Assembly (NCBI GenBank): GCA_018814355.1
Contig: JAHIZT010000115.1
Coordinates: 1-32,111 of the forward strand
From: Candidatus Thermoplasmatota archaeon
Lineage (GTDB): Archaea; Thermoplasmatota; Thermoplasmata; UBA10834
Direction: 5' to 3'
Length of the DNA stretch: 32,111 bases
Position numbers and translations under genes: made by a program. This document shows positions 3,415-30,846 of this stretch, piece after piece. The first letter of the stretch is position 1, and each line of letters begins with the position of its first letter. Under the pieces are notes generated by a model. That model was not told the origin of the DNA. It was given only the letters and a program-made list of their open reading frames with translations, and searched no databases.

Positions 3415-3480
3415 GGACAACCAATTGGAATCCAGACGGTGTAGTCAGTATTGGTTCTTCTCAGAGACCAGAGGCATACG

Positions 3481-9269: not shown

Positions 9270-12200
9270 ATGGGTCTTAGAGACAAGGCTAGAGAGAGTG
9301 CATCGAAATCGGCCTCAGAGCCGGTCATCAGTGAGCCCGCTAAGGCTCTGTCAGAGCAACCTCCATCTACACCGCCGACCCCAGAACCTTCTACAGAGGC
9401 CCACCCTAAGGCCCTGGAACCGTCCGTGACATACCTCGTTGAGGAGGAAAGGCCTGACCTGGCCTACAAGCTGTTCATGGATGCGGCAGCACAGGGAATT
9501 CGGGGCATGATTGTATCGAGAACCTACCCCAAGAACCTCAGGAAGGCACTCGACCTTGGAGATGCCCCAGTGTACTGGCTGACGAATGCCATGAGCGACG
9601 AGGCCATAGGCCCCAAGGACCTCGAACGTCTGACCCTCGCAATAAGGAGGTATCTTGATGAGGGAGGCGGCCAGATGGTCCTCATAGACTCTCTCGAGTA
9701 CATCATAACCAACAACAAGTTCGTCAGTGTTCTCCGGCTCATCCAAACCATCCGCGACCTCGTGGCCGTACGCAAGGCTGTGGGGATAGTCTCGATCAAG
9801 TCATCCACCCTTGAGCCAAGCAAACTAGCGTCCATCCAGAGAGAGCTCGAGGTATACTCCACCGACAGGAACGCGCGGCCCTCGGTCGTGCAACCAGACG
9901 CAGAGTCGAAGCTCATAAGCGAGCTCAAGCACGACGAGATAATCATCGAGGCCGAGAAGCTCGATGAGGCGAGGAAGAATCTCTCGACCCAAAGCGCGAA
10001 GATGGCCTCGGATACGCAGAGACTCACCCTCGACAGGCAGGAGCTCGAGAAGGAGCGTATGGAGGTCCGGCAGACCCTGGTCAGAGTGAGACAGACCCGG
10101 AAGGAGCTAGAGGATTTCAGGATCAAGCTTACCAAGGAAGAGGCGGAGCTGACCTCCAGGGTCAGGATCAAACTCGCCAAGGAGATGCAATCTCTAGACT
10201 CGAAGAAGGCAAACCTCGAGATGATGGAGAAAGAGGTCGAGACGAGGTATCAGCAGCTGGACAGGATCGTCGGTCTCAAGACAGAACAGAAGATGTTCGA
10301 AATCTCGGGTGAGAAGAAGCGCCAGGACGCGGAGCGGCAGAAGCTCTCCGAGATGATGTCCCGGATCGAGGCTGACCGCAGGACGATCGATGAGAGACTG
10401 CAGAGCATCCAGGAGAAGGAAGAGTTAGCAGAGAAATCTTCCGACGAGGCCAAGGTCCGAGAGAAGAAGCTCCAGGAGCGGGAGCACGCGATCGCGATCG
10501 ACAAGGTCGAGATAGAGAAGGAGCGAGCTGCGGTCGATACTGAACGCAAGGATGTCGACAGGTCGAGAAAGACTCAGGACGACGAGATCGCGCAGATGAA
10601 GGCCGAGATCGGGAGGATGTCGGCTGATGTCACTCAGCGAGAGGAATCGGCCTCGACGCTCACTCACGAGCTCGAGACCCTCAAGTCCCGACTTGTCACC
10701 CAGGAGCAGATGCTGAACGAGCGGGAGAAGTCCGTGGCTCTGCGAACCGACGGCTTAGACAAGCGTGAGTCGTCCCTCGCATCTCTCGAGACCGAGGCCA
10801 GGCAGATGCTGGAGAAGGCAAACCTGCTCGATACTGCCGCAAAGAACAAGGAGGCTCAGCTCAACAACGAGCATGAGAAGATCCAAGAGGAGATCGAGAA
10901 CCTCAGAGTAGAGCTCAACAAACGCTCGGCTGACCTGCAGAAGCACGAGGAGAAGCTGAGGTCGGATGAGGACAGGTTCTCGAAGGAGAGCGAGGCAAGG
11001 GGCAAGGCCCTAGCAGAACTGGAATCGCATCTGAAGGAGCAGGGCGCTAGTCTGCAGAAACTCAGGGATGCTCTCGACAAACGCGAGGTCGCCGTGAAGA
11101 CCGTCGAGGTGGAAATCGACCAGATCAAGAACGAGTCTGAGGAGTTCGCGGCCTCCTTGAACGATCAGAAGGCCGCATTCGAGAAGGAGTCGCAGAAGAC
11201 CAAAGCTAGCTTGATCGAGGAGAGGAACGCGTTCGAGCAGGACACGCTAGCCTTTGAGCGTGACAGGGCCGATACTCAGAGACAGATCGCAGAGGCGGAG
11301 AAGGAGATAGACGAGAAGCTGGCGAGGATCGAGGAGGAGCGCAGGGAGGTCGAGGAGAAGTCTCTCGCAGTTGAGGAGATGAAGACCATACTGAACCAGC
11401 GTGCCAGCGATGTGGCCTCCTCGGAGCTCAAGATGGCGGAGGAGCGCGTATCGATCGAAGGGCTGAGGCGCGAGTTGACGAAGAAGCGGGAAGAGATGGA
11501 GATGCTGGAGCGCGACCTGGCAATCAAGCATCAGAACATCCAGGCCACCGCCGAGCTGGTCCAGAATACCAAATCAACCGTGGACGAGCGGGAAGGTCTC
11601 CTGAGGGAGCAGCTGTTGGTCTCAGAGAATGAAAGGAACACGCTGGAGGCAAAGAGAGTTGCCTTGGAAAGCCAACAGTCGGAGCTGGAGAAAGAGAGGG
11701 ACGAGGTCGCTACTAAGGCTGAGGAGACAGCTGCTCAGCAGACCGAGCTGGAAGAGTGGAAAGCCCAGCTCGATGAGATCTCAGAATCATTGAAGGCCAA
11801 GGGGGCCGAGATCAAGGCAAAAGAAGCTGCGATCCTGGCGTCCAAGGACGATTACACGAAGATGAAGGAGGAGCTCGTAGCCGAGAAGGCCGAGCTTGAA
11901 GGCGATTACAATTCGAAGTTCTCGCAGATCGAGGACAAGAGCAGGCTCCTCGAGGCGGAGGCCGCATCGCTCGAAGCGGTCCGCAACAAGATGACGCTCT
12001 CAGAACAGGATGCGAGCGGACGGGAGGAGGCCATACTCGCGGCAGAAGGCGTCCTCGGGGAACGTGAAAAGAAGCTTGCGGATTCAGAACTGGCGTTCCA
12101 ATCGGCCAAGAGGGCAATAAGCGAGCAGTTGGATAACCTGAAGCTCGAGAAGCAGTCCATGGAGGAACAGAAGAACAAACTTGCGAAGGACTGGGAGGCC

Positions 12201-14264
12201 CTCCAGCAGGAAAAGGACGGGATCCAGAAAGAGATAGAAGCCTCGTGGACCGAACTGGAGTCGGCCAAGAAGGACTTGGAGGAGCGGGCCGGGGCACTCG
12301 AGGAGAAGGGAGATGCACTGTCAGCCCGTGAGAATGACCTCAATACATCCGCGGGAGATGTTGCCGCGAGGAAAGCAGAGTTGCAGCAACTTGAGCTCAG
12401 ACTGAACGAATCGCATTCGACGCTCAAATCAAAAGAGGAAGAGCTCAAGAGGATGACTACAGAGATCGAGGGGCTCAAGATTGAGGTCGGCCAGAAACAT
12501 GAGGCATCTCAGCAGAGCATAATGGCGATGCAGCACGACCTCGAGCAGAAGACGGCCGCTCTCGAGGAGGAGAAGGCTGGGCTCGAAGCCGAAAAGGCAC
12601 GGACGATTGCGAGCATTGAATCTGAACGGGCGGCCATTGCCTCTGAACAGTCCCGAATTATCGATGAATTGAATTCCGAGAAGGCGACTGTGGCGACCGA
12701 GAAGGCGGAACTGAAGCAAGAGGCCAGCAGGATCTCGACCGCCAAGGCCGAGATCGTTCAGGCGCAGGAGCAGATCGAGGCGAAGTATGCAGAGACCGAG
12801 ACGCGGGCGCGGGAGGGCAAGTCCCGTGATGAGAAGATCGTGCAGAGGGAGATACTTCTAGCGGAGCGAGAGGCTGCGGTTGCCAGCACCGAGGTTGAGT
12901 CAAGAAAGGCACTCGAGGCAGAAGGAATGACCCTCCAGAGAGCCAAGGCAGAAATCGACTCCCTGAGGGCAGAACTTGGACGGGAAGAAGCCGCCTTGGA
13001 GGAATCACGGAATGACCTGTCTGAGGCTCACATGGAACTGGGGCAGGAGAAGGTTGCCCTGGAAGAATCAAGGAAGCAACTCTCTGAAGCTCATGCAGAA
13101 TTGGCTGACAACAAGACCCTTCTGGAACAGAAGGAGGCCGCGATCAGCAGCGGCTCTGCCGAATTGGGGCTGGAGAAAGCTGCCTTGGAGGAGTCCGAGA
13201 AGGAACTGGCAGAAGCGCACGCAGAGCTGGCCCAGAAGAAGCAGTTTCTAGACCAGAACGAATCCGCCATCGCCAGCGGCTCTGCAGAACTGACGTCGCA
13301 GATGTCAGCACTCGAAGAATCAAAGCAGGGGATGACTAGAGCTCTTGCGGAACTAGCTGAGAAGAAGACGGTCCTCGAACAGAAGGAAGCTGCGATATTC
13401 AACAGCTCCGCGGAGCTGGAGAACAAAGCCATGAGCCTCGCGCAGATGGAGTCCAAGCTCGCGGGTGAGATGAAATCCCTCGAGAGCAGACAAGCTGCCC
13501 TGAACATGAGAGAGCAGGATGCAGGGAAGTCCATGGACGAATACAGGGCCGTCCTGGACGAGATCGCCAAAGAGGGAGAGGGTCTGAAATCGAAGGAGTC
13601 AGACTTGAAGGCACGCACGGCGCAACTCGAACAGAGCATCAACGACCTCGAGCTACTTCAGGCGGCTACCGAAAGAGAGAGGAATCTGATTGATCAGAAG
13701 GATGCCGGGCTCGAGCAGCTCAGGATGGAGCTCGAGAAGTGGCGCATCGAACTCATGGACAAGAGGGAGCAGCTGGAGGAAGAGGTCCGGGAGAGGGTCA
13801 CGGAGGTCTCCCATCAAGCGGCGAGCTTGACGAGACCGCAGGCTGCCACCGTCACTGACGATGCCCTGCTCAGGCGGGAGATAGAGCTGCGGAACCTCGA
13901 AGAGCATCTTCGTTCAAGAGGACGCGATCTCGAGACGAAGGAGCGGACAGTCGCTGTCGAGATGGAGAGGCTTGAGAAGGAGCGGACGGAGGTCCAGGAT
14001 ATCTGGGACAAGGTAGACTTCTCGAAGAAGGGGATCGCCGCGGTCATGGATGAGAAGACAATCGTAGAGCTAGAGAGGAGGAAGCAAGAGCTGGACCAGC
14101 TGTACCTGAAGCTCTCCGACCGAGAGGAGACCATACGCAAGGACGAAGCACGCCTTGAGGGTGAATGGAGCAGGCTTCAGACGATCGAGGAGGAGCTCTC
14201 CGATCTAGCGCGAGTCCTGAAGTCCAAGGACGATGACATAAAGAGGCTGGACGGGCCGGCCTAG
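9270..14264 (+). CDS. Giant DUF835-domain coiled-coil protein
   Basis: A 1664-residue protein of unknown function. Residues 1-50 are Ser/Pro/Ala-rich and probably flexible. Residues about 52-196 match the archaeal DUF835 domain: TYLVEEERPDLAYKLF, VSRTYPKNLRK, PVYWLT and the hallmark VLIDSLEYIITNN (137-149). From about 215 to the end the sequence is almost continuous Glu/Lys/Gln/Arg/Leu heptads, predicting a very long coiled coil. The segment encoded by 12993-13433 consists of near-identical 42-residue repeats. There is no Walker motif, so it is not an SMC or Rad50 ATPase. There is no membrane segment or signal peptide. Possible TATA boxes lie at 9187-9197 and 9202-9212. The gene stops with TAG, convergent with the S-adenosylmethionine synthetase gene 24 bases away. 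Confidence 0.85.
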   Translation: MGLRDKARESASKSASEPVISEPAKALSEQPPSTPPTPEPSTEAHPKALEPSVTYLVEEERPDLAYKLFMDAAAQGIRGMIVSRTYPKNLRKALDLGDAPVYWLTNAMSDEAIGPKDLERLTLAIRRYLDEGGGQMVLIDSLEYIITNNKFVSVLRLIQTIRDLVAVRKAVGIVSIKSSTLEPSKLASIQRELEVYSTDRNARPSVVQPDAESKLISELKHDEIIIEAEKLDEARKNLSTQSAKMASDTQRLTLDRQELEKERMEVRQTLVRVRQTRKELEDFRIKLTKEEAELTSRVRIKLAKEMQSLDSKKANLEMMEKEVETRYQQLDRIVGLKTEQKMFEISGEKKRQDAERQKLSEMMSRIEADRRTIDERLQSIQEKEELAEKSSDEAKVREKKLQEREHAIAIDKVEIEKERAAVDTERKDVDRSRKTQDDEIAQMKAEIGRMSADVTQREESASTLTHELETLKSRLVTQEQMLNEREKSVALRTDGLDKRESSLASLETEARQMLEKANLLDTAAKNKEAQLNNEHEKIQEEIENLRVELNKRSADLQKHEEKLRSDEDRFSKESEARGKALAELESHLKEQGASLQKLRDALDKREVAVKTVEVEIDQIKNESEEFAASLNDQKAAFEKESQKTKASLIEERNAFEQDTLAFERDRADTQRQIAEAEKEIDEKLARIEEERREVEEKSLAVEEMKTILNQRASDVASSELKMAEERVSIEGLRRELTKKREEMEMLERDLAIKHQNIQATAELVQNTKSTVDEREGLLREQLLVSENERNTLEAKRVALESQQSELEKERDEVATKAEETAAQQTELEEWKAQLDEISESLKAKGAEIKAKEAAILASKDDYTKMKEELVAEKAELEGDYNSKFSQIEDKSRLLEAEAASLEAVRNKMTLSEQDASGREEAILAAEGVLGEREKKLADSELAFQSAKRAISEQLDNLKLEKQSMEEQKNKLAKDWEALQQEKDGIQKEIEASWTELESAKKDLEERAGALEEKGDALSARENDLNTSAGDVAARKAELQQLELRLNESHSTLKSKEEELKRMTTEIEGLKIEVGQKHEASQQSIMAMQHDLEQKTAALEEEKAGLEAEKARTIASIESERAAIASEQSRIIDELNSEKATVATEKAELKQEASRISTAKAEIVQAQEQIEAKYAETETRAREGKSRDEKIVQREILLAEREAAVASTEVESRKALEAEGMTLQRAKAEIDSLRAELGREEAALEESRNDLSEAHMELGQEKVALEESRKQLSEAHAELADNKTLLEQKEAAISSGSAELGLEKAALEESEKELAEAHAELAQKKQFLDQNESAIASGSAELTSQMSALEESKQGMTRALAELAEKKTVLEQKEAAIFNSSAELENKAMSLAQMESKLAGEMKSLESRQAALNMREQDAGKSMDEYRAVLDEIAKEGEGLKSKESDLKARTAQLEQSINDLELLQAATERERNLIDQKDAGLEQLRMELEKWRIELMDKREQLEEEVRERVTEVSHQAASLTRPQAATVTDDALLRREIELRNLEEHLRSRGRDLETKERTVAVEMERLEKERTEVQDIWDKVDFSKKGIAAVMDEKTIVELERRKQELDQLYLKLSDREETIRKDEARLEGEWSRLQTIEEELSDLARVLKSKDDDIKRLDGPA
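12993..13433 (+). repeat. 126-bp in-frame tandem repeats
   Basis: Three 126-bp units start at 13056, 13182 and 13308, each encoding a 42-residue unit that begins ALEES and includes AELxxKK, a xQKEAAI-like step and SSAEL or GSAEL. A half unit of 63 bp (12993-13055) precedes them. 42 residues is exactly six heptads, so the expansion keeps the coiled-coil register. DNA identity is imperfect, so the duplication is recent but not fresh. Confidence 0.85.
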
Positions 14265-14288: not shown

Positions 14289-15485
14289 TCAGAACACAGT
14301 GACCTTGCCCTTCACGATCAAGTCCGTCAGGTCGGTTATTCTAGCGAGTCCGTCGTCATAGATCGCCCTGATCTCCTTCTCGTACCTCTTCTGGTTCACA
14401 TTCGGGGCGTAGATGACGTTGGCGCTAGCGGCCTGGGGTGCGTCGATCGGACGGCCGATCTGAGAAAGCATCCTGGTGTGCACCTCGACGATGTCCCCCT
14501 TGCCCATCTTGATGATGTCGCTGGCAACAATGTTGGCCAGTATGTTATACAGCTTGCCAACATGTGTGACTGGGTTCTTGCCCGCGGATGCCTCCATGCT
14601 CATCGGCCTCATCGGTGTGATCAAGCCGTTGGCGCGGTTGCCTCTGCCCACAGAACCATCATCGCCATTCTCCATGCTCAGCCCCGACACCGTCAGGTAG
14701 TAGATGCCCTTCCTGTAATCGTCCGCGGTGTTGACGAAAACTTTGAGCTTCCTGTCCGTGAATCCCTGGGCGAAATCATGGATCTTGCTGGTCGCCTCCT
14801 CGATGGCGCTCTCATAATGGCCCTTGTCTGGGACCTTGGAGGAAACTATCGCGACCGCGACTGTCAGATCGATCTCGTCGCCCATCCGGCAAGCCATGAC
14901 CTTGACATCCTCACCAAGCTCGGGAAGCTTGTGCCAAAGCTTGCAGTTGATGAACTTCTCAGTCTCGAGCGTGATCTTCTCGGTCTCGCTGAGGGGCGCG
15001 AATCCGACTCCGAACGAAGTGTCGTTTGCGAGAAGCCGCTTGGTCTCGTAGAGTCCTCTCAGGTCGACGCTGCCCTGTCCGATCCTGCAGTCAAGGGTCA
15101 CATCCCATTCCACATCAAGGTTCTTGCAGGTCTTCTCCAGGTAGGAATACGCGGCTTTTAGGGCACACGTCCTGTACGGGAGCCTCTCTCCGTTGACTTC
15201 AGTGGTCGCTCGACCAACCAGGAGCACATATATCGGCTCTAGCATGTACCCGCCGCCGAACCTGGGTGCGGACTGGCCGCCAACGACCTCCACCTCATCG
15301 GTGTTGTGGTGCAGTATCCTGCCGTACCTCTCCCGGTACATCTTGCACAGAGCCCTGGAAACACTCTCGGCCAGCCCGTCAGCGATGCTGTCCGGGTGTC
15401 CGATACCCTTCCTCTCGACGAACTCGATGTTCTGCTTTTCAATGGGAGTGTGGGTCAGTTGCTCAATGAAAATGTTCCTTTCCAT
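14289..15485 (-). CDS. mat: S-adenosylmethionine synthetase, archaeal type
   Basis: This makes S-adenosylmethionine from methionine and ATP in the cytoplasm. The sequence is the distinct archaeal family, not the bacterial MetK type: 398 residues (family about 400), ERKGIGHPDSIADGLAE at residues 24-40, and the HHNTDEVEVVGGQSAPRFGGG segment around residues 58-80. Late motifs include GRGNRANGLITPMRPMS and the SQIGRPIDAPQ stretch. A minus-strand TATA-like box lies about 33 bases before the ATG. The lysine 2,3-aminomutase gene sits immediately upstream on the same strand. That enzyme consumes this product as its cofactor, so the pairing makes sense. A long open frame on the opposite strand (14274-15161) is a shadow of this gene. 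Confidence 0.95.
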   Translation of the reverse strand: MERNIFIEQLTHTPIEKQNIEFVERKGIGHPDSIADGLAESVSRALCKMYRERYGRILHHNTDEVEVVGGQSAPRFGGGYMLEPIYVLLVGRATTEVNGERLPYRTCALKAAYSYLEKTCKNLDVEWDVTLDCRIGQGSVDLRGLYETKRLLANDTSFGVGFAPLSETEKITLETEKFINCKLWHKLPELGEDVKVMACRMGDEIDLTVAVAIVSSKVPDKGHYESAIEEATSKIHDFAQGFTDRKLKVFVNTADDYRKGIYYLTVSGLSMENGDDGSVGRGNRANGLITPMRPMSMEASAGKNPVTHVGKLYNILANIVASDIIKMGKGDIVEVHTRMLSQIGRPIDAPQAASANVIYAPNVNQKRYEKEIRAIYDDGLARITDLTDLIVKGKVTVF

Positions 15486-15581: not shown

Positions 15582-16856
15582 TCACTTCTTCTTGCGATAT
15601 CCCTTCCGTCTGGACTCCCTGAGGCTGCCTTCAGGGACGAGGCACATCTTCTTGCCAGAGAGAACGCCAGCGACGCCCTCCTTGCTCTCTACCTTGCTGT
15701 AGTCGTCGCACATCTTGCAGGTCGGAGGGCAGACGGATATGCGGTCCTTCGGCTCTGGGTACGAGAACGTTCCGCCCTCGTAGTTCCTCAGCACGACGCG
15801 CTTGTCGGACATGGATATCAAGTATTGAGGCGCTATCGGTATCTTCCCTCCGCCGCCAGGGCCGTCAACGATGAAAGTCGGAATGGAGAACCCTGACGTG
15901 TGTCCCCTGAGCGCTTCCGCGATCTCGATGCCCTTCGCAACCGATGTCCTGAAGTGCTCGATGCCCCTTGAAAGATCGCACTGGTAGAAGTAGTACGGTC
16001 TGCACCTGATCTTCACGAGATCCTGTACGAGCTTCTTCATAATCGTCGGGCAGTCGTTTATCCCCTTGAGCAACACAGACTGGTTCCCAACCGGGATGCC
16101 GTGGTCGACAAGCATCTCGACGGCCTTCTTCGACTCAGGGGTGATCTCCTTCGGATGGTTGAAGTGCGTGTTCAGCCACATGGGATGGTACTTCGTGAGC
16201 ATCTTGCACAGTTCGGGCGTGATCCTCTGAGGCATCGTGCATGGCGTCCGGCTTCCTATGCGGACGATCTCAACATGGTCGATGGCCTTCAAGCGTTTGA
16301 TGATGTCTTCAAGGAACGAGTCTGAAACTAGCAGAGGGTCGCCCCCAGACAACAGAACGTCTCTGATCTCCTCGTGCTTAGTGATGTACTTGATGGCGGC
16401 GTCAATCGAAGCCTTGTCTCGCTGGTGGTCCTGCTGTCCTGCCAGCCTTCTCCTCGTGCAGTGCCTGCAGTAGTTGGCACACATATCGGTGATGAGGAAC
16501 AGAACTCTGTCCGGGTACCTGTGCGTGAGGCCGTGCACGGGCGAGTCTATGTCCTCGAACAGAGGGTCCTCCATGTCAGATGCGCTGAAATCCAATTCCT
16601 TGATCGTGGGTATGGCCTGCATCCTGATAGGGTCGTGCGGGTCGTCCGGGTCCATTAACATTGCGAAGTACGGGCTGATGGCCATTCTGAGAATCTTGAG
16701 CGATTCGTGCACTCCCGCCTCTTCATCTGGGGTGAGGTTGACGACCTCCTTGAGCTGGTCGACGGTGGTGATCCTATTCGCGACCTGCCATCTCCAATCG
16801 TCCCACTGCTCTTTCGTGACGTTCTTCCAGAGAGAGACTTCTTTGTAAGACCTCAT
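15582..16856 (-). CDS. kamA: Lysine 2,3-aminomutase (radical SAM, PLP)
   Basis: This converts L-lysine to L-beta-lysine (3,6-diaminohexanoate) using a [4Fe-4S] cluster, SAM and pyridoxal phosphate. The radical-SAM triad is C126, C130 and C133 in CANYCRHC. The PLP lysine is K338 in the PGGGGK motif. D294 (in QCDLSRG) and D331 (in IVDGPGG) occupy the positions of the two aspartates that hold the lysine side-chain amine in the clostridial enzyme. That favours a true lysine aminomutase over the EF-P-modifying paralogue, EpmB. Length 424 is normal. Archaea use KamA for the osmolyte N-acetyl-beta-lysine (with AblB) or for lysine breakdown. No AblB is beside it, while a thiolase/CoA-transferase/aminotransferase operon diverges from it, which favours catabolism (inference). 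Confidence 0.93.
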   Translation of the reverse strand: MRSYKEVSLWKNVTKEQWDDWRWQVANRITTVDQLKEVVNLTPDEEAGVHESLKILRMAISPYFAMLMDPDDPHDPIRMQAIPTIKELDFSASDMEDPLFEDIDSPVHGLTHRYPDRVLFLITDMCANYCRHCTRRRLAGQQDHQRDKASIDAAIKYITKHEEIRDVLLSGGDPLLVSDSFLEDIIKRLKAIDHVEIVRIGSRTPCTMPQRITPELCKMLTKYHPMWLNTHFNHPKEITPESKKAVEMLVDHGIPVGNQSVLLKGINDCPTIMKKLVQDLVKIRCRPYYFYQCDLSRGIEHFRTSVAKGIEIAEALRGHTSGFSIPTFIVDGPGGGGKIPIAPQYLISMSDKRVVLRNYEGGTFSYPEPKDRISVCPPTCKMCDDYSKVESKEGVAGVLSGKKMCLVPEGSLRESRRKGYRKKK

Positions 16857-17176: not shown

Positions 17177-18343
17177 ATGAAGAGAGTTGCAATAGTCGGA
17201 GCAGGACAAAGCAAGTATGGCGAATTCACCGACAAGGGCATCAAAGAACTGTTCTTCGAAGCATACAAGGACATGAGCGCTAGCGTAGACAATGGTCTAG
17301 ACCCGAAAGCCATCGAGGCCGCCTACATAGGCAACCTCGGCTCGGGAGGCTTTCAGCTTGGAAACATGTCCGCTCTGGTGATGGAGTATTGCGGCCTTCC
17401 TTACATCTTGACGATGAGGATTGAGAACGCATGTGCATCAGGCGGGTACGCGCTCGTCGCCGCGATAATGGATGTGCTCTCTGGCACACACAAGGTTGCA
17501 TTGGCTGGAGGCGTCGAGAAGATGACAGACGTGTCTAGCACGAAGCAGAAGTACTGGCTCGGCGTCTCTGGTGACACCGAGTACGAGAGACTTGCCGGCA
17601 CGACCTTCTCCGGCCTGTACGCGCTGATCGCTCAGAGACACATGCACGAGTTCGGAACCAAGCGCGAACATCTATCGATGGTGGCTGTCAAGAACCACAA
17701 GAACGGCGCACAGAACCCGAAGGCGCAGTTCCAGAGGGAGATCACCCTCGAGCAAGCGATGAAAGGGCCGATTGTTGCCGCTCCCTTGAATCTGTTCGAC
17801 TGCTGTTCGACCACCGATGGCGCCTCGGCAGTTCTCGTGTGCGATGCGGACATCGCTAAACAGTTCACTGACACACCGATCTACGTGGCTGGGTTCGGCA
17901 CATCGAGCGACTACCTGGCGATCCATGACAGGGTGAACACCGTCACTCTCGAGGGCACAAAGAAGGCCAGCGAGAGGGCATACAAGATGGCGGGACTAAC
18001 GGCAAAGGATATTCATCTTGCAGAGGTCCACGACTGTTTCACGATAGCCGAGCTCCTTGCGTACGAAGATCTCGGATTCTGCGAGAAGGGCAAGGCAGGG
18101 CAGTTCATCGAAGAAGGCCACACCCAGATAGGTGGGGACAAGCCCGTAAATGCTAGCGGCGGCCTGAAGTCCAAAGGACATCCGATTGGATCGACCGGGA
18201 CAGGACAGGCGTATGAGATGTTCAACCAGCTCAGAGGAACGGTTCAGAAACCCACAAGACAGGTCAAGAACGCCGAAATAGGGTTGGTGCACAATGTAGG
18301 CGGTTCAGGTGGGACCGTCGCTGTTACAATCATGAGGAGGTGA
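17177..18343 (+). CDS. Thiolase (acetyl-CoA C-acetyltransferase/3-ketoacyl-CoA thiolase, archaeal SCP2-like)
   Basis: This either condenses two acyl-CoA units or, in the other direction, cleaves 3-ketoacyl-CoA to acetyl-CoA plus a shorter acyl-CoA. The catalytic set looks complete: C86 in ENACASGG is the acyl-carrying Cys, and H335 in GHPIGSTG is the conserved His. HNVGG (H372) replaces the second Cys motif, as in archaeal/SCP2-type thiolases; the family HDCFT motif is at 285-289. Length 388 is typical. AAGGTG precedes the ATG at 17177 by five bases. In archaea such genes form a stable complex with a DUF35 protein and HMG-CoA synthase, and both neighbours are present in that order. Here the HMG-CoA-synthase partner lacks its catalytic residues and a CoA-transferase pair follows, so thiolytic breakdown is the favoured direction (inference). 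Confidence 0.92.
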   Translation: MKRVAIVGAGQSKYGEFTDKGIKELFFEAYKDMSASVDNGLDPKAIEAAYIGNLGSGGFQLGNMSALVMEYCGLPYILTMRIENACASGGYALVAAIMDVLSGTHKVALAGGVEKMTDVSSTKQKYWLGVSGDTEYERLAGTTFSGLYALIAQRHMHEFGTKREHLSMVAVKNHKNGAQNPKAQFQREITLEQAMKGPIVAAPLNLFDCCSTTDGASAVLVCDADIAKQFTDTPIYVAGFGTSSDYLAIHDRVNTVTLEGTKKASERAYKMAGLTAKDIHLAEVHDCFTIAELLAYEDLGFCEKGKAGQFIEEGHTQIGGDKPVNASGGLKSKGHPIGSTGTGQAYEMFNQLRGTVQKPTRQVKNAEIGLVHNVGGSGGTVAVTIMRR

Positions 18344-18348
18344 ACGGG

Positions 18349-19365
18349 TTGGCGACTGGCATTTCAGGATATGGTACATACATCCCGAGGTTCAGGATCA
18401 AGAAGGAAGAGTACACAAAGGCCTGGGGTTCGTTCTCTGCCGCTGGTGTGAACGAGAAATCCGTCATGGGCTTCGACGAGGACGTGTTGACATCGGCGGT
18501 CAAGGTTTCGAAGCGAGCGCTTGAATCCGTGCCGCTCACGCCTGATAAGGTGTCGAGATTCGCCTTGGCATCCACTTCCGCTCCGTATGTCGAGAAGCTG
18601 CTGTCGGGCACGGTGCTCGTGAGCCTGGGCATACCGAACTCCGCGTTCGCATCGGATCACACAACATCTACAAGGGCGGGAACCGAAGCCATGATATCCA
18701 GCTTCGAGCACCTGGCCGCCAACCACGGTGGAAACGCGGTGGTCGCCGCCGCGGACGCACCTAGGGCAAGCATGTGGAACTCGTTCGAGCATCCACTGGG
18801 AGCTGGCGCCGCAGCGTTCGTCCTTTCGGGAGACAACCTTATAGCCGAGCTCGAAGGGCATGCGTCATACGCCAGCGAGTACTTCGGAGAGCGGTTCAAG
18901 GCGAGGAACGACGAGCTGATCCAGGACATAAACGTTAAGAAGTTCGAGGAATCGTCCCTGATTGTCAACACCACGAAGGCAGGCACCGCGCTCATGAAGA
19001 AGCTGAACAGGAATCCCGAGGACTACCAGCACGTGGTCATACAGCAGCCCGACGCCAAGGTCCCGGCCACGGTAGCCGCGAGACTGCACTTCACTGATGT
19101 TCAACTGGCAGCGGGCCTGGTCTCGAAATCGGTCGGCGACCTCGGGGCAGGCTCTGCGCTCGTGGGACTCGCAGCAGTCCTGGACGTCGCGAAGGTCGGC
19201 GACAAGGTGATGGTAATCTCCTACGGTTCAGGCGCTGGCAGCGACGCCCTGAGCTTCAAGGTTGTCAGCGAGAGGAAATCACCCTTCAAGGTACAGACAG
19301 AGCTCGACCGCAAGGAGTACATCGACTATGTCAAGTACCTCAAACTCAAAGGAGCAATCGTGTGA
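18349..19365 (+). CDS. HMG-CoA-synthase-like protein lacking the catalytic residues
   Basis: The 338-residue sequence aligns along its whole length with archaeal HMG-CoA synthases: GYGTYIPRFRI, VNEKSVMGFDED, GAGAAAFVLSG, LVGLAAVLDVAK and SYGSGAGSDALSF. The three active-site residues of that family are all replaced. The Glu of the SESxPY motif is T76 (STSAPY), the acyl-carrying Cys of ACKAGT is T108 (STRAGT), and the His of HQPNGK is Q232 (QQPDAK). Ordinary HMG-CoA synthesis is therefore unlikely. It could scaffold the thiolase/DUF35 complex or do chemistry without an acyl-enzyme. I chose the TTG at 18349 because GAGGAGGTGA (18334-18343) is well placed. The GTG at 18340 overlaps the thiolase stop and that ribosome site. 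Alignment is from memory of the family, with high similarity at each motif. Residues are counted from the TTG. Confidence 0.85.
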   Translation: MATGISGYGTYIPRFRIKKEEYTKAWGSFSAAGVNEKSVMGFDEDVLTSAVKVSKRALESVPLTPDKVSRFALASTSAPYVEKLLSGTVLVSLGIPNSAFASDHTTSTRAGTEAMISSFEHLAANHGGNAVVAAADAPRASMWNSFEHPLGAGAAAFVLSGDNLIAELEGHASYASEYFGERFKARNDELIQDINVKKFEESSLIVNTTKAGTALMKKLNRNPEDYQHVVIQQPDAKVPATVAARLHFTDVQLAAGLVSKSVGDLGAGSALVGLAAVLDVAKVGDKVMVISYGSGAGSDALSFKVVSERKSPFKVQTELDRKEYIDYVKYLKLKGAIV

Positions 19366-19376
19366 GGTGAGATGAT

Positions 19377-19802
19377 ATGGCACATGTTTCAATCCCGATG
19401 TATTGGAGGACCATCCCCCAGAGGTACAAGCTCGTAGGTCACAAGTGCAAGAAGTGCGGCCACATCAACTTCCCGCCCAAGGGCGTCTGCAAGTCCTGCA
19501 ACGCATCCTCGGAGTTCGAGGAGGTGCAGATGAGCGGCAGGGGGAAGATCCACACCTTCGTCCTGATAAGCGCAGGCGGTGCGCCCCCGGAATTCGCGGA
19601 GCAGGAGAAGGCAGGAGGACAGTACCCAGTGGCCATCGTGGAGTTCGAGGAGGGCCCGAAGGTCATAGGCCAGATTGCGGACGCCGACCCGAAGGAGGTC
19701 AAGATCGGGATGCCGGTCAAGACCGAGCTAAGGAAGATATACAGCGAAGAGGGCGTCATAAGATACGGATTCAAGTTCGTCCCAGTAGCGGAAGGAAAGT
19801 GA
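19377..19802 (+). CDS. DUF35 zinc-ribbon/OB-fold protein, thiolase partner
   Basis: A 141-residue protein with an N-terminal rubredoxin-like zinc ribbon (C24, C27, C38, C41) and a C-terminal OB fold (GRGKIHTFVLISAG through VIGQIADADPKEVKIGMPV). In archaea this family bridges thiolase and HMG-CoA synthase, providing a shared CoA-binding groove so that acetoacetyl-CoA passes between active sites. In bacteria, relatives pair with thiolase-like aldolases. Here it immediately follows the HMG-CoA-synthase-like gene, with GAGGTGA (19364-19370) six bases before the ATG, so it almost surely binds both upstream products. It shows no catalytic residues of its own. Confidence 0.9.
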   Translation: MAHVSIPMYWRTIPQRYKLVGHKCKKCGHINFPPKGVCKSCNASSEFEEVQMSGRGKIHTFVLISAGGAPPEFAEQEKAGGQYPVAIVEFEEGPKVIGQIADADPKEVKIGMPVKTELRKIYSEEGVIRYGFKFVPVAEGK

Positions 19803-19806
19803 TTAG

Positions 19807-20724
19807 ATGGACCCTGGAAAGATGATGACAATGAAGGAGGCGGTGTCGAAGTACGTCAAGGACGACGACATCATCTACTTGGCGGGATTCACGCACATGA
19901 TCCCGTTCGCTGCAGGCCATGAGATCATCCGGCAGAAGAGGCGGAACATGACCCTCTGCCGGGCAACGCCGGATATCATATACGATCAGATGATAGCTGC
20001 CGGTTGCTGCAAGAAGGCGATGTTCAGCTACGCCGGAAACCCTGGCGTCGGTTCACTTAGGTGCTTCAGGAGGGCCCTGGAGAAGGGCCAGCCGAACAAG
20101 ATCGAGATCGAGGAGTATACGCACTTCGGCCTGTCAGGCAGGCTTTACGCGGGGGCGACCAACATGCCGTTCCTGCCGATGCGCACGAACCTTGGCTCGG
20201 ACCTCCCGGCACAGAACCCCAACATGAAGACGATCAAGGACCCATACTCTGGCGACGAGGTGTCCATCGTACCGCCGCTGAAGCCAGACCTGGCGGTCGT
20301 GCATGTCCAGAGATGTGACATAGAGGGCAACTCGCACATATGGGGGATCATAGGTGAGCAGAAGGATGCGGCGTTCGCGTCCAAGAAGGTCATAATCAGC
20401 ACAGAGGACATCGTGGACGAGTCGGTCATAAGATCCGACCCGAACAGGACCGTGATTCCGGACTTCGTTGTACACGCGGTCGTGCACGAGCCATGGTGCG
20501 CGCACCCGTCATACACCCAGGGGTACTACGACAGAGACAACGAATTCTACATGCAGTGGGACGAGATAACTAAGGAGCACGACACGACATTGAAGTACCT
20601 GGATGAATGGGTCTTCGGAGTCGAGGACAGGGCGGCGTACATGAAGAAGATCTCGGCGGAGAAGCTGCTGAAGCTGAAGCCGAAGGCGGCCTACTGCACG
20701 CCCGTCGACTACGGGACTTTGTGA
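19807..20724 (+). CDS. Family I CoA-transferase, subunit A (GctA/IpdA-like)
   Basis: Alpha subunit of a two-gene family I CoA-transferase, 305 residues, resembling glutaconate CoA-transferase A and the steroid-ring hydrolase subunit IpdA more than the shorter SCOT/AtoD-type A subunits. Visible features are the N-terminal MKEAVSKYVKDDDIIYLAGF segment with its Gly-rich turn, the PDLAVVHVQRCDIEGN stretch conserved in the family, and a late SYTQGYYDRDNEFY segment. The catalytic glutamate is expected on the B subunit, encoded next. The partner acid is unknown; a 3-keto or related carboxylate is likely from the thiolase context. The ATG at 19807 is four bases after the DUF35 stop, with GGAAAG just upstream, so it belongs to the same operon. 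Confidence 0.87.
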   Translation: MDPGKMMTMKEAVSKYVKDDDIIYLAGFTHMIPFAAGHEIIRQKRRNMTLCRATPDIIYDQMIAAGCCKKAMFSYAGNPGVGSLRCFRRALEKGQPNKIEIEEYTHFGLSGRLYAGATNMPFLPMRTNLGSDLPAQNPNMKTIKDPYSGDEVSIVPPLKPDLAVVHVQRCDIEGNSHIWGIIGEQKDAAFASKKVIISTEDIVDESVIRSDPNRTVIPDFVVHAVVHEPWCAHPSYTQGYYDRDNEFYMQWDEITKEHDTTLKYLDEWVFGVEDRAAYMKKISAEKLLKLKPKAAYCTPVDYGTL

Positions 20725-20729
20725 GGAGG

Positions 20730-21500
20730 ATGATGACTGTGACAGAAGTAACTCCGAGCGAATTGATGGTCATAGTAGCGGCAAGGGAACTCAAGGACAG
20801 GGAATCGGTCCTTGTAGGCGTGGGCATTCCGAACCTGGCAGCCAACCTGGCGAAGAAGCTCCAGGCGCCGCACCTGAACATGGTGTACGAGTCGGGGGCG
20901 GTGGGCTCCAACCCAACAAGGATGCCTTTATCCATAGGCGACCCATGCCTCGTCACGGGCGCGAAGAGCGTCTGCTCGATGTACGAGCAGTTCGCATACT
21001 ACCTTCAGGGCGGTAGGATAGACGTCGGCTTCCTTGGAGGCGCGCAGATCGACAAATACGGGAACATCAACTCGACGGTCATCGGCCAGTACGCTGCTCC
21101 CAAGGTCAGACTGCCTGGCAGTGGCGGAGCATGCGACATCGCGTCAAACGTCAAGAAGATCATCGTGATAACCCCCCACGAGAAACGCAGGTTCGTCGAG
21201 AAAGTGGACTTCCTGACGAGTCCGGGGTTCATCGACGGCAAGGAGAAGTGGAAGCAGCTGAAGTTGCAGGGCGGCGGCCCCTTTGCAGTCATCACAAACC
21301 TGTGCACAATGAAGTTTGACGAGATCACAGGCGAGATGACCGTCGTGTCTCTCCATCCCGGCGTCACGCTAGAAAAGGTTCAGGAGAACACCCCTTGGAA
21401 GCTCAAGGTGGTCGAGAGATTGGAGAACACTCCCGCGCCGACGGATAGAGAAATCGCAACGCTCCGCGCGCTAGATCCCGCTAAGACATATCTGGGGTGA
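20730..21500 (+). CDS. Family I CoA-transferase, subunit B (GctB/IpdB-like)
   Basis: Beta subunit paired with the preceding gene. The family's active-site glutamate is present as E54 in VYESGAVG, which forms the glutamyl-CoA thioester in true transferases. MPLSIGDP follows, and the nucleotide-like DVGFLGGAQIDKYGNINS segment lies near residue 98. Retaining this Glu argues for CoA transfer rather than an IpdB-like hydrolase. Starts at ATG 20730, ATG 20733 and GTG 20739 are all possible: GAGGAGG at 20723-20729 touches the first and is better spaced for the last. An in-frame extension back to 20607 overlaps the A subunit and is rejected. The gap after the A subunit is five bases, so co-translation is likely. 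Numbering is from 20730. Confidence 0.88.
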   Translation: MMTVTEVTPSELMVIVAARELKDRESVLVGVGIPNLAANLAKKLQAPHLNMVYESGAVGSNPTRMPLSIGDPCLVTGAKSVCSMYEQFAYYLQGGRIDVGFLGGAQIDKYGNINSTVIGQYAAPKVRLPGSGGACDIASNVKKIIVITPHEKRRFVEKVDFLTSPGFIDGKEKWKQLKLQGGGPFAVITNLCTMKFDEITGEMTVVSLHPGVTLEKVQENTPWKLKVVERLENTPAPTDREIATLRALDPAKTYLG

Positions 21501-21506
21501 TTGCAG

Positions 21507-22853
21507 GTGTGCGCTGAATTCGATCCGATCTCTGAATATCAAGCGAAGACGACGAAGAGCTTTGAACTGTTCAAGCACGCTTGCCAACACCTCCCTGGTG
21601 GTGTCACGGGCAATATCAAGTTCTACAAACCGTACCCGATCTACGCAAAGCGTGCGAAGGGATCTCACCTCTGGGATGTAGACGGCAACGAGTACATAGA
21701 CTACATGCTGTGCTTCGGTCCTCTGATTCTGGGGCATGGACACCCGAGGGTGATGCAAGCGATCCAGAAGCAGCTGGAGGACGATGGCACTACAATCTTC
21801 GGCCCGCCACATGAGCTCGAGGTGAAGATGGCTGAGCGGCTGAACCGCATCTTCCCCAGCGCGGAGATGACACGATTCGCGAACTCCGGGCTCGAAGCGA
21901 CCATGCACGCGCTACGGGTTGCCAGAGGGTTCAAACGGAAGAGCCGAATCGCCAAGTTCGAGGGACACTATCACGGGTGCTACGACGAGGCTTTGGTCAG
22001 CCTGACGCCGTCCGAGGAGACAGCCGGGCCGGAGGCGGCCCCCCAGCCAGTGTCCTGTTCGATGGGGACATCGGACTACACCCTCCAGAGCGTACAGGTC
22101 CTGCCTTTCAACGACACGGAGAACACAATTCGGCTGCTGAGAGCGCACAAGGGCGATCTGGCAGCAGTGATCATGGAGCCGATCCAGAGGGGGTTCATCC
22201 CCTCAGATCCCGAGTTCTTGAAGGCCGTCCGCGAGACGACAACTGAGCTTGGGATCGTATTGATATTCGACGAGGTGATGTCGGGCTTCCGCATGGATCG
22301 ACTGGGTGGAGCGCAAACGATGATGGGAGTAACTCCGGACTTGATGTGCCTAGGCAAGATCATCGGTGGAGGATTCCCATGTGGCGCGTTCCTCGGCAGG
22401 CGGGAGATCATGGAAGTGGTCAATCCCTTCACCAGGAACAAGGATGATAGAGTCTTCCACGGCGGCACATTCAACGGCCATCCGACAATACTGGCCGCAG
22501 GAATGGCAACATTGGATGTGCTCGATGAACCAGAGACCTATCCATACCTGAACCGGATCACGGAGAAGCTTCAAAATGGCATGAACGATCTCTTCGATAG
22601 ACTGAATGTTGAGGCCCAAGCTATAGGTCCGGGTTCGACGTTCAAGATTGTCTTCAGCAAGAGGAAGCTGTGCGACTACAGGGACGCTCTGAAGTGTGAC
22701 CAGAAGAAGCAGCAGCTTTTCGACTTTGGCATGATCTCACGAGGCATCCACTTCCACCCTGACAAGCCGTTCTACACATGCACTGAGCATACAGACAAGG
22801 ATGTCGAACACACCCTGAATGTCGCCGAAGAAGTCCTCATGAAGATGAGGTAG
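21507..22853 (+). CDS. Class III aminotransferase, glutamate-1-semialdehyde-aminomutase-like
   Basis: A PLP-dependent fold-type I enzyme of 448 residues. The Schiff-base lysine is K284 in LGKIIGGGFPCGAF, and the PLP-binding Asp is D255 in IFDEVMSGFR. ANSGLEATMHALRVAR and FEGHYHGCYDEAL mark the GSA-aminomutase-like branch. A true HemL is doubtful: the NSGTEAT threonine is Leu (L129), and the operon contains no tetrapyrrole genes. The same branch includes beta-amino-acid aminotransferases, which would suit beta-lysine or its N-acyl form as substrate (inference). The GTG at 21507 is chosen because GGGGTGA, which contains the stop of the preceding gene, ends seven bases before it. A TTG at 21501 is also open. 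The stop is TAG. Confidence 0.85.
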   Translation: MCAEFDPISEYQAKTTKSFELFKHACQHLPGGVTGNIKFYKPYPIYAKRAKGSHLWDVDGNEYIDYMLCFGPLILGHGHPRVMQAIQKQLEDDGTTIFGPPHELEVKMAERLNRIFPSAEMTRFANSGLEATMHALRVARGFKRKSRIAKFEGHYHGCYDEALVSLTPSEETAGPEAAPQPVSCSMGTSDYTLQSVQVLPFNDTENTIRLLRAHKGDLAAVIMEPIQRGFIPSDPEFLKAVRETTTELGIVLIFDEVMSGFRMDRLGGAQTMMGVTPDLMCLGKIIGGGFPCGAFLGRREIMEVVNPFTRNKDDRVFHGGTFNGHPTILAAGMATLDVLDEPETYPYLNRITEKLQNGMNDLFDRLNVEAQAIGPGSTFKIVFSKRKLCDYRDALKCDQKKQQLFDFGMISRGIHFHPDKPFYTCTEHTDKDVEHTLNVAEEVLMKMR

Positions 22854-25086: not shown

Positions 25087-25461
25087 GCAGAAGCTCCTTA
25101 CGGCCCTTCGGGCAAGTCGGCAACTCATCCGAGGGCCTACGGCGCGTTCCCACGGGTCATCAGGAGATACGTCGTTGAGAAGGGGCTGTTCTCGCTTGAG
25201 GAAGCAATCAGGAAGATGACCTCGTGGCCTGCGGAGCGAATAGGTTTGACTGACAGGGGCGTTCTGGCAAAGGGAATGGCGGCCGATGTCGTGATTTTCG
25301 ATCCCGAGAAGATCAGAGATATGGCGACCTTTGAGGATTCCCACAGATACCCGGAAGGAATAACGAGTGTGATTGTCAACGGCGCAGTGACGATCGACAA
25401 TGGCGAACACACGAAGGAGCGCGCTGGCCAGGTCCTGAGACACTTGCCCCGGGTCTCTTAG
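25087..25461 (+). pseudogene. C-terminal remainder of the N-acyl-D-amino-acid deacylase
   Basis: In frame with the preceding segment and without further stops until TAG 25459-25461. It contains the family's HPRAYGAFPRVIRRYV stretch, the EAIRKMTSWPAERIGL helix and the GMAADVVIFDP beta-sandwich strand. It has no ribosome site or promoter of its own; an internal ATG at 25216 would start past the HPRAYG motif, so independent expression is unlikely. Codon use looks like the upstream part, which suggests that the break is recent or only apparent. Its last bases overlap the stop of the convergent M20 gene (shared TTAG). Confidence 0.7.
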
Positions 25462-26678
25462 CCTTTCATGCTCAAACCGCAGATGTCCAGCGCGACCTCG
25501 GAATACACCTTCTGGCATTTGAGCAGGTCGTCTACGAGGACATATTCGATGCGGGCATGTGCTCCCGCACCACCTGGCCCAAAAACGACCGTCGGCATCT
25601 TTGCGAAGTGAGTCATGAGGGCAGCATCGGTCCATCCCCAGAAGCTGGTCGTCTTCGCAGGTTTCTTGGTCACGTCCCTAACAGCTCTCTCCAACGACTT
25701 GACGACCGGATGCCCTGTCGAAACCACATTCGGTACATGGTTCATGGTCTTCATGTTTGAGGGGTCCCGCTTGAGCTCTGCCCTGAACCTGGGGTCCTCC
25801 TTCTTTATGTCGTCGAAGATGTCGTAGATCTCCTGAAAGACTTGCTGGAGCTTCTCCTCAGGGATCCATCTCCTGTCGATCCTAATGACGCAGTGTTCCG
25901 CTACAGAGCTTGGCTGCTGACCCCCTTGAATCACTCCCAGGTTGAGAGTAGGCGGAAGCGTGTGCCTGGACTTGCGCTCCCGAAGCCGTGGGAGCAAGTC
26001 AGTCTCGACAGCGTTGACGAACTTGGCCGCCATGGAGATCGCGTTCACGCCTCGGTCAGCTTGGCCGCCATGTGCCGCTTTACCGTAGAAGTGCACATTT
26101 AGCCATTCCAGGCCTCTGTGAGAAGGCTGGACCTCGAGGTCGGTGGGCTCCCCAACAATCGCCATGTCCGCCCTGGGACCTTTGAGGATCAAGTCCTCGG
26201 TCCCTTCGCTCTTTCGCTCCTCCCCAACGACAGCCGTAAAGTGCAGGTCCCCCTCAAGCTTGATTCTGGCTCGATCGATGGCAACCAAGGCCATCGCCAT
26301 AGCCCCTAGACCGCCTTTCATGTCGAGGGCGCCTCTGCCATACAGTCTGCCCTTGACGATCTTAGGGGTGAATGGCGGGATATCCATGTCGAATGCTGGG
26401 ACGGTATCAGTGTGTCCGTTCAGCATTAAGCTCCTGCCTTTCCCGTGCCCCTTTATCACAGCAATCACGTTCGGCCTGCTCTTCTCCACAAGCCTCAGTC
26501 TCGAATCGATCCCCTCACCAAGAAGGAACTCGTTCATGTGCTCGGCGACCGCCTTCTCTTGCGTTGGGACCTCCGGATGGCTCTCTATCCTCACGAGGTC
26601 CTTCACCAGTTTCTCGATCTCGGACTTCCTCACTGCTCGCCAGACCCTGTCCAGATGATTGGATGACTTCGCGGTCAT
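25458..26678 (-). CDS. M20-family metallopeptidase/deacylase (ArgE/DapE/CPG2-like)
   Basis: A cytoplasmic two-zinc amidohydrolase of 406 residues. The metal and catalytic residues are visible: H89 and D91 in NGHTDTVP, D119 in GALDMKGG, the catalytic Glu pair E153/E154 in VGEERKSEGT, the acid in IVGEPTDL, and the last His in GAGAHARIEYV. The middle section, around the HFYGKAAHGGQ stretch, is the dimerisation lid. The family covers acetylornithine deacetylase, succinyl-diaminopimelate desuccinylase, aminoacylase and carboxypeptidase G2. The exact substrate cannot be fixed; de-acylation of N-acyl amino acids or dipeptides is the safe reading. It is the last leftward gene after the Opp/P1 operon, separated by 78 bases that hold a palindrome, so it may have its own control. 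Confidence 0.9.
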   Translation of the reverse strand: MTAKSSNHLDRVWRAVRKSEIEKLVKDLVRIESHPEVPTQEKAVAEHMNEFLLGEGIDSRLRLVEKSRPNVIAVIKGHGKGRSLMLNGHTDTVPAFDMDIPPFTPKIVKGRLYGRGALDMKGGLGAMAMALVAIDRARIKLEGDLHFTAVVGEERKSEGTEDLILKGPRADMAIVGEPTDLEVQPSHRGLEWLNVHFYGKAAHGGQADRGVNAISMAAKFVNAVETDLLPRLRERKSRHTLPPTLNLGVIQGGQQPSSVAEHCVIRIDRRWIPEEKLQQVFQEIYDIFDDIKKEDPRFRAELKRDPSNMKTMNHVPNVVSTGHPVVKSLERAVRDVTKKPAKTTSFWGWTDAALMTHFAKMPTVVFGPGGAGAHARIEYVLVDDLLKCQKVYSEVALDICGLSMKG

Positions 26679-26696
26679 GTGGGGACCAACCTAGTA

Positions 26697-26727
26697 CCAA
26701 GCGCTTGGCGGATGCGGATAGCGCTTG
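26697..26727. promoter_or_regulatory. Palindrome plus repeated half-site before the M20 gene
   Basis: CCAAGCGCTTGG (26697-26708) is a perfect 12-base palindrome. The core AGCGCTTG recurs at 26720-26727, exactly 20 bases from the first copy at 26700-26707, i.e. about two helical turns on the same face. The sites end 19 bases before the M20 start codon, a position suited to an operator. No obvious TATA box accompanies them, so the assignment is tentative. Confidence 0.4.
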
Positions 26728-26756
26728 CACGCGAAAAAAGTATCTGACGGCATCCA

Positions 26757-27851
26757 TCAGCTTTTGAGGCGTCCGTGCTCCTTGATAATCTCCAGAGTCC
26801 GGTCGATCGGGAGTGCCATCACCACATGGTCATCTCTGCCCTGCATCGTCTCCGCCTTGAACAGGGAGTTGATGATCGATTCAGCCACCGAGTCCGCCGT
26901 AGCCCTGAACAACACGTTCATGTCCCTATCGAGCAAGAGGTGCTCGGTCACCAAACCGTTGTGTCTGTATCTCTCATGGATGTTCGCGGTCGAGAACGCG
27001 AGGACGATGTCTCCGCTCCCGTTGTGGGATGCAGAACCTGTAGTCGCCAGGCCCATGATTGCCCTTTTGGCTATCCTGCCCAACTGTCTGGAATCCAGTG
27101 GCGCGTCCGTTGCGACGACCATCACGATAGATCCCTGCTCGGGTCGCTTGTAGTCGGGCGACCCCAGAAGGCTGCCGACCGGCACACCGTCGATCCTGAG
27201 CTCGTTCCAGTCTCCGTGGTTGGACAGGACTAACGTGCCAACAGTGAACTTCCCTGCTTGCACGGAGACAACTCTAGAGGAGGTTCCGATGCCACCCTTG
27301 TAGTCATAGCAGCTCATCCCTGTGCCAGCGCCAACCGCGCCCTCCTGGACCGTCGAGTTGGCTCCTTCGAGCGCAGCCAATACATGCTCTTCTCTTACAT
27401 GCATGCCCTGAGAGTCGTTCAAGTAGCTGTCGTCGCACTCAGTCACGATCGGTATGATTGTATCGTCAAGACTGCCGACGGTGGGGTTGCTCTTGACCAT
27501 GTACCTGATGACCGCATCGGCCACCGTACCCATGGACATCGTGTTCGTCAGCATGATCGGAGAGTCGATGAGACCGAACTCCTTGATCTGGAGGGAACCA
27601 GTGAGTCCGCCGCAACCATTGAAATCGAAGTACGCTCCCTTGACTGGTCGCTCGTAGGAGTTGCCCTCATGAGGGAAGATCGCTGTCACTCCTGTTCTCA
27701 CCGGTCCAGTCCCGGGTAGTAGTGGCCCCGAACCCCTTATGATGCTACAGTGGCCGACCCTGACCCCGGAAACGTCTGTGATCATGTTCTTGGGCCCGGT
27801 GGGCAGCTCCCCGAACCAGATCCCGGCCTCCCTGGCTCTTGGTCTGGTCAC
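26757..27851 (-). CDS. P1-family aminopeptidase/amidase (DmpA/BapA-like, S58)
   Basis: An autoprocessed N-terminal-nucleophile hydrolase of 364 residues. Relatives are L-aminopeptidase/D-amidase DmpA and beta-aminopeptidase BapA, which cut short peptides, D-amides or beta-peptides. The self-cleavage site is visible as G240/S241 in PEQGSIVMVVATDAPL, making Ser241 the mature nucleophile. The N-terminal GPKNMITDVSGVRVGH and the GAVGAGTGM...GGIGTSSR segments are hallmarks. I chose the GTG at 27851, overlapping the OppF stop as GTGA, because family proteins begin at RAREAGI. A longer frame from 27974 adds 41 residues that overlap oppF. Translational coupling to the Opp ATPases suggests that it processes the imported peptides (inference). 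Numbering is from the GTG. Confidence 0.9.
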   Translation of the reverse strand: MTRPRAREAGIWFGELPTGPKNMITDVSGVRVGHCSIIRGSGPLLPGTGPVRTGVTAIFPHEGNSYERPVKGAYFDFNGCGGLTGSLQIKEFGLIDSPIMLTNTMSMGTVADAVIRYMVKSNPTVGSLDDTIIPIVTECDDSYLNDSQGMHVREEHVLAALEGANSTVQEGAVGAGTGMSCYDYKGGIGTSSRVVSVQAGKFTVGTLVLSNHGDWNELRIDGVPVGSLLGSPDYKRPEQGSIVMVVATDAPLDSRQLGRIAKRAIMGLATTGSASHNGSGDIVLAFSTANIHERYRHNGLVTEHLLLDRDMNVLFRATADSVAESIINSLFKAETMQGRDDHVVMALPIDRTLEIIKEHGRLKS

Positions 27852-28954: not shown

Positions 28955-28959
28955 TCAGT

Positions 28960-29922: not shown

Positions 29923-30036
29923 CGTTCGGTTCCCCCTTAACGATTTCAGTTGTCGATTGTCGTTGCTTCAAGGAGCGAGCGATCAGGCAAACAGCTTTCT
30001 ATCCGCTGCTCCTGGACCTTCGGTGAATCCGATTTC

Positions 30037-30045
30037 GCTATAAAT
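30037..30045 (-). promoter_or_regulatory. TATA-like box of the opp/P1 operon
   Basis: The minus strand reads GCATTTATA. It is the best archaeal box in the 208-base gap before oppD and would start a leader of about 90 bases. The same bases also read CTATAAATG on the plus strand, so direction is not certain. The rest of this gap (29923-30130) shows nothing else recognisable. Confidence 0.4.
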
Positions 30046-30130
30046 GCGTTTTGGATTGACTGAGATTCGTGTTGGTGTCCCAATTCGAGGCTTTCGAACG
30101 GAGTACACTCATTCGAAGGGCCATGAGCGC

Positions 30131-30805: not shown

Positions 30806-30846
30806 CGTCGGGTGTATGAACCGCGTCCCAGATAACCAATATGGTT

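Follow-up and report, generated by a model that had tools for sequence, protein, structure and literature searches.

An HMG-CoA-synthase-like protein lacking the catalytic Glu, Cys and His as a probable non-catalytic subunit of an archaeal thiolase complex

In the window analyzed here, a stretch of 32,111 nucleotides from a Candidatus Thermoplasmatota archaeon, a gene is present that encodes a homolog of HMG-CoA synthase (HMGCS) in which all three active-site residues are replaced. The best explanation overall, to which we assign a probability of roughly 0.7, is that this HMG-CoA-synthase-like protein (HMGSL) is a non-catalytic member of a thiolase complex, which most likely ends a lysine-degradation route. 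The gene lies among the following features:

14289..15485, minus strand: archaeal S-adenosylmethionine synthetase, encoded downstream of kamA, with which it shares the strand
15582..16856, minus strand: lysine 2,3-aminomutase (KamA), divergent, QCDLS and FIVDGPGGGGK motifs kept
17177..18343, plus strand: SCP2/archaeal-type thiolase, presumed catalytic subunit, with intact Cys (ENACASGG), HD (EVHDCF) and GHP
18349..19365, plus strand: HMGSL, 338 residues, T76/T108/Q232 replacing E/C/H; translation could alternatively begin at a GTG at 18340
18574..18576, plus strand: codon ACT of Thr76, at the position of the general-base Glu in HMGCS (alignment and codon read)
18670..18672, plus strand: codon ACA of Thr108, at the position of the acyl-carrying Cys in HMGCS (alignment and codon read)
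19042..19044, plus strand: codon CAG of Gln232, at the position of the His in HMGCS; PhlA likewise has Gln
19377..19802, plus strand: DUF35 protein, ChsH2-type zinc ribbon and OB fold, four zinc-ribbon Cys present
19807..20724, plus strand: CoA-transferase subunit A (CoAtA), among solved structures closest to glutaconate CoA-transferase A (1poi)
20730..21500, plus strand: CoA-transferase subunit B (CoAtB), among solved structures closest to glutaconate CoA-transferase B (1poi); ESG motif, Glu conserved
21501..22853, plus strand: class-III aminotransferase (AT3), HemL-like, below the HemL equivalog cut-off

The reading frame of HMGSL is open and intact, and since a GAGGAGGTGA stretch precedes the TTG at 18349, this start and the residue numbering are reasonable. 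A phmmer alignment with the HMGCS of M. thermolithotrophicus (6esq) spans the whole length (E 4e-43, residues 7-340) and pairs gsEshpy, faCkagt and fHqpngk of 6esq with aSTSapy, tsTragt and iQqpdak of HMGSL, respectively. This alignment and the codons confirm the original prediction that Glu, Cys and His are exchanged for Thr76, Thr108 and Gln232 within well-kept motifs. Furthermore, HMGSL does not contain a single Cys and its family displays no conserved Cys column. A relocated active-site Cys is thereby ruled out, and a relocated Cys/Glu/His set becomes unlikely. An AlphaFold model of HMGSL based on a five-row alignment reached a pLDDT of 33 and was discarded.

The exchanged residues are conserved. 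Thr76 and Gln232 are present in all 16 full-length orthologs, which belong to three genera of one GTDB family of Thermoplasmata, and position 108 is occupied by Thr in ten and by Ser in six of them. A homolog from another family of the phylum (genome G046), sharing 41% identity with HMGSL, likewise reads T/T/Q. Other positions have been switched and then fixed, e.g., N264D and Y266G, both of which are found in PhlA too. Within the genus, dN/dS amounts to 0.06–0.13 for HMGSL and 0.03–0.07 for the partner thiolase, and HMGSL evolves about twofold faster than the latter; the genomes compared are mostly MAGs. This combination of a conserved residue loss with purifying selection indicates that HMGSL is maintained by selection for another task, and, as judged from the sequences, chance or pseudogene decay is excluded as the origin of the loss.

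The same genome encodes a second HMGCS on contig 61 (G000:C61), which is Cys-containing (GSESHPY, FACKAGT, FHQPNGK), as the original prediction had suggested to look for, and which is followed by thiolase and DUF35 genes. Glu, Cys and His are kept in the canonical HMGCS of every genome of the class in which one was examined. HMGSL and all of its 16 orthologs lack this Glu/Cys/His set, by which membership among the HMG-CoA synthases is judged. Here, the profile models disagree: HMGSL passes NF003274 (HMG-CoA synthase equivalog) with 275.3 bits against a cut-off of 244, and fails TIGR00748 (the NCBIfam archaeal equivalog) with 189.6 against 353.35 bits. The warning that automatic annotation as HMGCS would be wrong was therefore justified, and NCBIfam PRK04262 would give HMGSL a wrong name. 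Curated models would wrongly label the gene as an enzyme of the mevalonate pathway.

Only gaps of a few bases separate the thl, HMGSL, DUF35, CoAtA, CoAtB and AT3 genes, and the order kamA-thl-HMGSL-DUF35-CoAtA-CoAtB-AT3 is identical in every relative with a sufficiently long contig. The thiolase beside HMGSL keeps ENACASGG, EVHDCF and KSKGHP in all orthologs. The operon had been described as intact with a thiolase and DUF35, which holds since both are present and intact, but it is larger than assumed and additionally comprises two CoA-transferase subunits and an aminotransferase. Elsewhere in the window, two KaiC-type ATPase genes are located at 3451-5267, and a protein of 1664 residues encoded at 9270-14264 displays an N-terminal DUF835 followed by a long, charged, coiled-coil-like remainder; its position is conserved, with an identity between relatives of only 32–58%. 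After the operon, genes for an M20 peptidase, an S58 (DmpA/beta-aminopeptidase-type) peptidase and Dpp/Opp ABC ATPases lie on the minus strand (25458-31755), which suggests a peptide-using lifestyle.

For the function of HMGSL, a precedent exists in the Friedel-Crafts acylase PhlABC. Here, PhlA lacks the Cys and Glu, the substrate is contacted by residues of PhlC only, and according to the authors the complex very likely depends on PhlA and PhlB for its proper folding (PMC6392133). In our alignment the triad positions read C/G/Q in PhlA, with Gln in place of the His, and C/E/Q in 9vbo_A. HMGSL shares two characteristics with a PhlA-type subunit: it is devoid of Glu and Cys, and it is encoded together with a Cys/His-intact thiolase and DUF35. 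A non-synthase HMGCS-like subunit is thus already known in kind and less novel than had been implied. In a first single-gene tree, all degenerate HMGCS forms fall on one side of a branch, with 9vbo on a very long branch; in a second one PhlA joins the canonical HMGCS side, the deep order being blurred by long branches.

Further support comes from proteins in which an HMGCS-like domain is fused to DUF35. A tblastn search located these beside thiolase genes on plasmids of haloarchaea and sphingomonads; the loci (L145-L151) belong to haloarchaea, Sphingopyxis, Novosphingobium and Diaphorobacter, and annotation lists the fusions as zinc-ribbon, OB-fold or ACP-synthase proteins. In all six aligned fusions the Glu is replaced by Thr or Ser and the Cys by Thr, Gln or Arg, while the His is replaced in four and kept in those of Haladaptatus and Sphingopyxis; the Halorubrum fusion reads T/T/Q. 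All of the adjacent thiolases keep their Cys and His. The thiolase of the operon (17177..18343) shares 52–54% identity with the haloarchaeal ones, compared to 49% with the mevalonate thiolase paralog of its own genome. According to the Rosetta-stone principle, the fusions support a physical contact between HMGSL and DUF35.

Taken together, HMGSL very probably belongs to a complex with the thiolase and DUF35 in which it has no catalytic function, where the physical complex as well as the structural role are deduced from the genes and their relatives. The architecture of such a complex would resemble that of the archaeal thiolase/HMGCS/DUF35 complex and of PhlABC. DUF35 would bridge both partners and keep HMGSL in contact with the thiolase. 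HMGSL itself would lend stability to the assembly and contribute to the cavity for CoA or substrate, whereas all covalent chemistry, including C-C cleavage, would take place at the thiolase Cys. A non-catalytic role is favored because E/C/H are lost in all orthologs while the adjoining thiolases keep Cys, His and GHP, and a role other than synthesis is favored because the canonical HMGCS is retained in the same genomes. This supports the original prediction of a conserved non-synthase role, which rests on the fixed residue loss, the canonical HMGCS elsewhere and the intact thiolase and DUF35. Among the options offered, namely scaffold, regulatory subunit or chemistry without an acyl-enzyme, the scaffold is the best supported, due to the PhlA precedent (PMC6392133) and the fused HMGCS-like/DUF35 proteins.

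Nevertheless, also an enzymatic activity without a Cys acyl-enzyme has to be considered, in which the hydroxyl of Thr/Ser108 together with Thr76 and Gln232 would mediate, e.g., acyl transfer, hydrolysis or decarboxylation. T76, T/S108 and Q232 have stayed fixed across widely diverged sequences, among them G046 and Halorubrum with T/T/Q, the hydroxyl at position 108 makes a residual chemistry conceivable, and the SYGSGAGSD loop as well as many motif residues are retained. However, the general-base Glu and the His are both lost, and Gly, Gln or Arg occupies position 108 in PhlA and the bacterial fusions, which form the same type of complex, so that a common chemistry would not be present there. 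We therefore regard an enzymatic HMGSL as improbable. The same low likelihood is given to HMGSL as an allosteric sensor of CoA or acyl-CoA, which would have kept the CoA-binding half and would tune the direction of the thiolase. This would be in line with the retained SYGSGAGSD loop and with the CoA site common to thiolase and HMGCS at their interface in the M. thermolithotrophicus complex (PMC12329534), but by sequence such a sensor is hard to tell from a structural subunit. That HMGSL is a decaying paralog without function is scarcely credible. Its twofold faster evolution compared to the thiolase would fit, but this idea is refuted by the conservation of HMGSL, which is intact and syntenic in 16 genomes of three genera, with the low dN/dS given above and fixed substitutions.

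In the mevalonate locus of these archaea the thiolase, and not the HMGCS, is degenerate. Beside the canonical HMGCS and DUF35, the thiolase Cys is changed to Gly, Asp, Glu or Thr in 41 of the 43 Thermoplasmata genomes inspected (G000:C61, at L001:1896-3068 and L052:4289-5449, and loci L019-L032, L054-L073 and L085-L103), and the His of GHP is usually changed too. Cys and GHP are kept in two of these 43 genomes only, both of family f14. A classical thiolase with GHP and CxGGG motifs is present in the own genome and in 16 others searched, and was not found in the two f14 genomes. On a simple reading, the classical thiolase would supply acetoacetyl-CoA, and the Cys-less thiolase would persist as structural partner of HMGCS. 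A Cys-less thiolase beside a live HMGCS, and a residue-less HMGSL beside an intact thiolase, therefore represent a mirror-image decay of two complexes. In the open-licence literature, which was covered in part, no report on the HMGSL family or on Cys-less mevalonate thiolases was found. We tentatively propose, as a possibility rather than an expectation, a reciprocal subunit inactivation in Thermoplasmata, in which the complex with the live thiolase and dead HMGCS would serve a so far undescribed lysine degradation in archaea, leading via beta-lysine to acetyl-CoA and 4-aminobutyryl-CoA. The mirror-image decay itself indicates that either enzyme of a well-known substrate-channeling complex can be lost singly while the assembly is kept, and it makes the non-catalytic contribution of each subunit testable, be it the CoA site, stability or channeling.

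The substrate of the operon is suggested by the neighboring genes. KamA lies above the TIGR03820 cut-off (591.1 vs. 525.4 bits) and aligns with 2a5h (E 9e-172) including the Asp motifs QCDLS and FIVDGPGGGGK; this Asp pair (QCDLS, VDGPGGGGK) binds the lysine side chain. KamA would convert lysine to beta-lysine, and the CoA-transferase and the HemL-like aminotransferase, in either order, would produce 3-oxo-6-aminohexanoyl-CoA by CoA activation (CoAtA/B) and transamination of the beta-amino group (AT3). The thiolase would then cleave this intermediate to acetyl-CoA and 4-aminobutyryl-CoA. The transamination step is supported by Kat, a HemL-like beta-aminoacyl-CoA transaminase encoded beside a thiolase gene and proven in the bacterial lysine fermenter Cloacamonas (PMC3149608). 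Beta-transaminases are also among the relatives of AT3. A hydrolase-type (IpdAB-like) role of the CoA-transferase pair is less likely, given the best matches to glutaconate CoA-transferase and the kept Glu motif. The synthesis of the osmolyte N-acetyl-beta-lysine was rejected, since the acetyltransferase AblB (TIGR03827) had no match in the own genome, while control genomes matched. Counting against a link to lysine, the thiolase-HMGSL-DUF35 trio of G046 (L083:8665-11286; T/T/Q) lacks kamA, CoA-transferase and aminotransferase neighbors and lies upstream of proB/proA-like genes, and the haloarchaeal fusion homologs are located in phenylacetate or beta-oxidation clusters. Complexes of this type thus occur outside a lysine context as well. 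Although the operon looks built for lysine breakdown, we hold this particular route at slightly less than even odds. If the reading of the operon is correct, it places genes of uncultured archaea in a pathway of lysine catabolism.

Alternatively, the operon could be the tail of a Cloacamonas-type lysine fermentation, with HMGSL still a non-catalytic subunit. Here, a 5,6-aminomutase, Kdd and Kce encoded elsewhere would process beta-lysine, the aminotransferase would act as Kat on 3-aminobutyryl-CoA to yield acetoacetyl-CoA, the CoA-transferase would activate acetoacetate and the thiolase would cleave acetoacetyl-CoA. In line with this, Kat is HemL-like and adjoins a thiolase gene in Cloacamonas (PMC3149608), and a protein of the BKACE (beta-keto acid cleavage) family is encoded in the own genome. 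However, this BKACE gene (G000:C37:3769-4635; L081) lies outside any lysine cluster, and a search for KamD (PF09043) gave no hit in the own genome and none in 390 Thermoplasmatota genomes, a result to be read with the control genomes likewise unmatched. This alternative is unlikely, albeit less so than an enzymatic or sensing HMGSL.

In comparison to known systems, the archaeal acetoacetyl-CoA thiolase/HMGCS/DUF35 complex (6esq) shares the three-gene operon and the full-length homology of thiolase and HMGCS. In contrast, HMGSL lacks the HMGCS active site, and its operon adds the genes of CoA-transferase, aminotransferase and KamA. PhlA (5m3k, 9skh) resembles HMGSL as an HMGCS-fold relative without Glu and Cys and with His replaced by Gln, and the partners correspond as well, namely a Cys thiolase (PhlC) and DUF35 (PhlB). 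The triad positions differ (C/G/Q vs. T/T/Q), and PhlABC acylates phloroglucinols, whereas the HMGSL operon is catabolic and archaeal. The haloarchaeal thiolase with its "zinc ribbon domain-containing protein" shows the same exchange of Glu to Thr or Ser and of Cys to Thr, with the His mostly replaced, but HMGCS-like domain and DUF35 form one chain there and the neighbors belong to phenylacetate degradation or beta-oxidation. The benzoylsuccinyl-CoA thiolase BbsAB (7pxp) and the haloarchaeal two-subunit thiolases BktB/PhaA have in common a thiolase with a second, small OB-fold subunit; an HMGCS-like subunit is not described for them in the literature examined. An identity with the characterized BktB of Haloferax is unsupported, since the H. 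mediterranei thiolase found has a Cys and BktB-alpha reportedly uses Ser. The Kat fermentation of Cloacamonas shares KamA, a HemL-like aminotransferase by a thiolase gene and a CoA-transferase with the operon. It differs in that a 5,6-aminomutase was not found for the operon, and in the archaeal thiolase of the latter, which would act in a complex together with HMGSL and DUF35.
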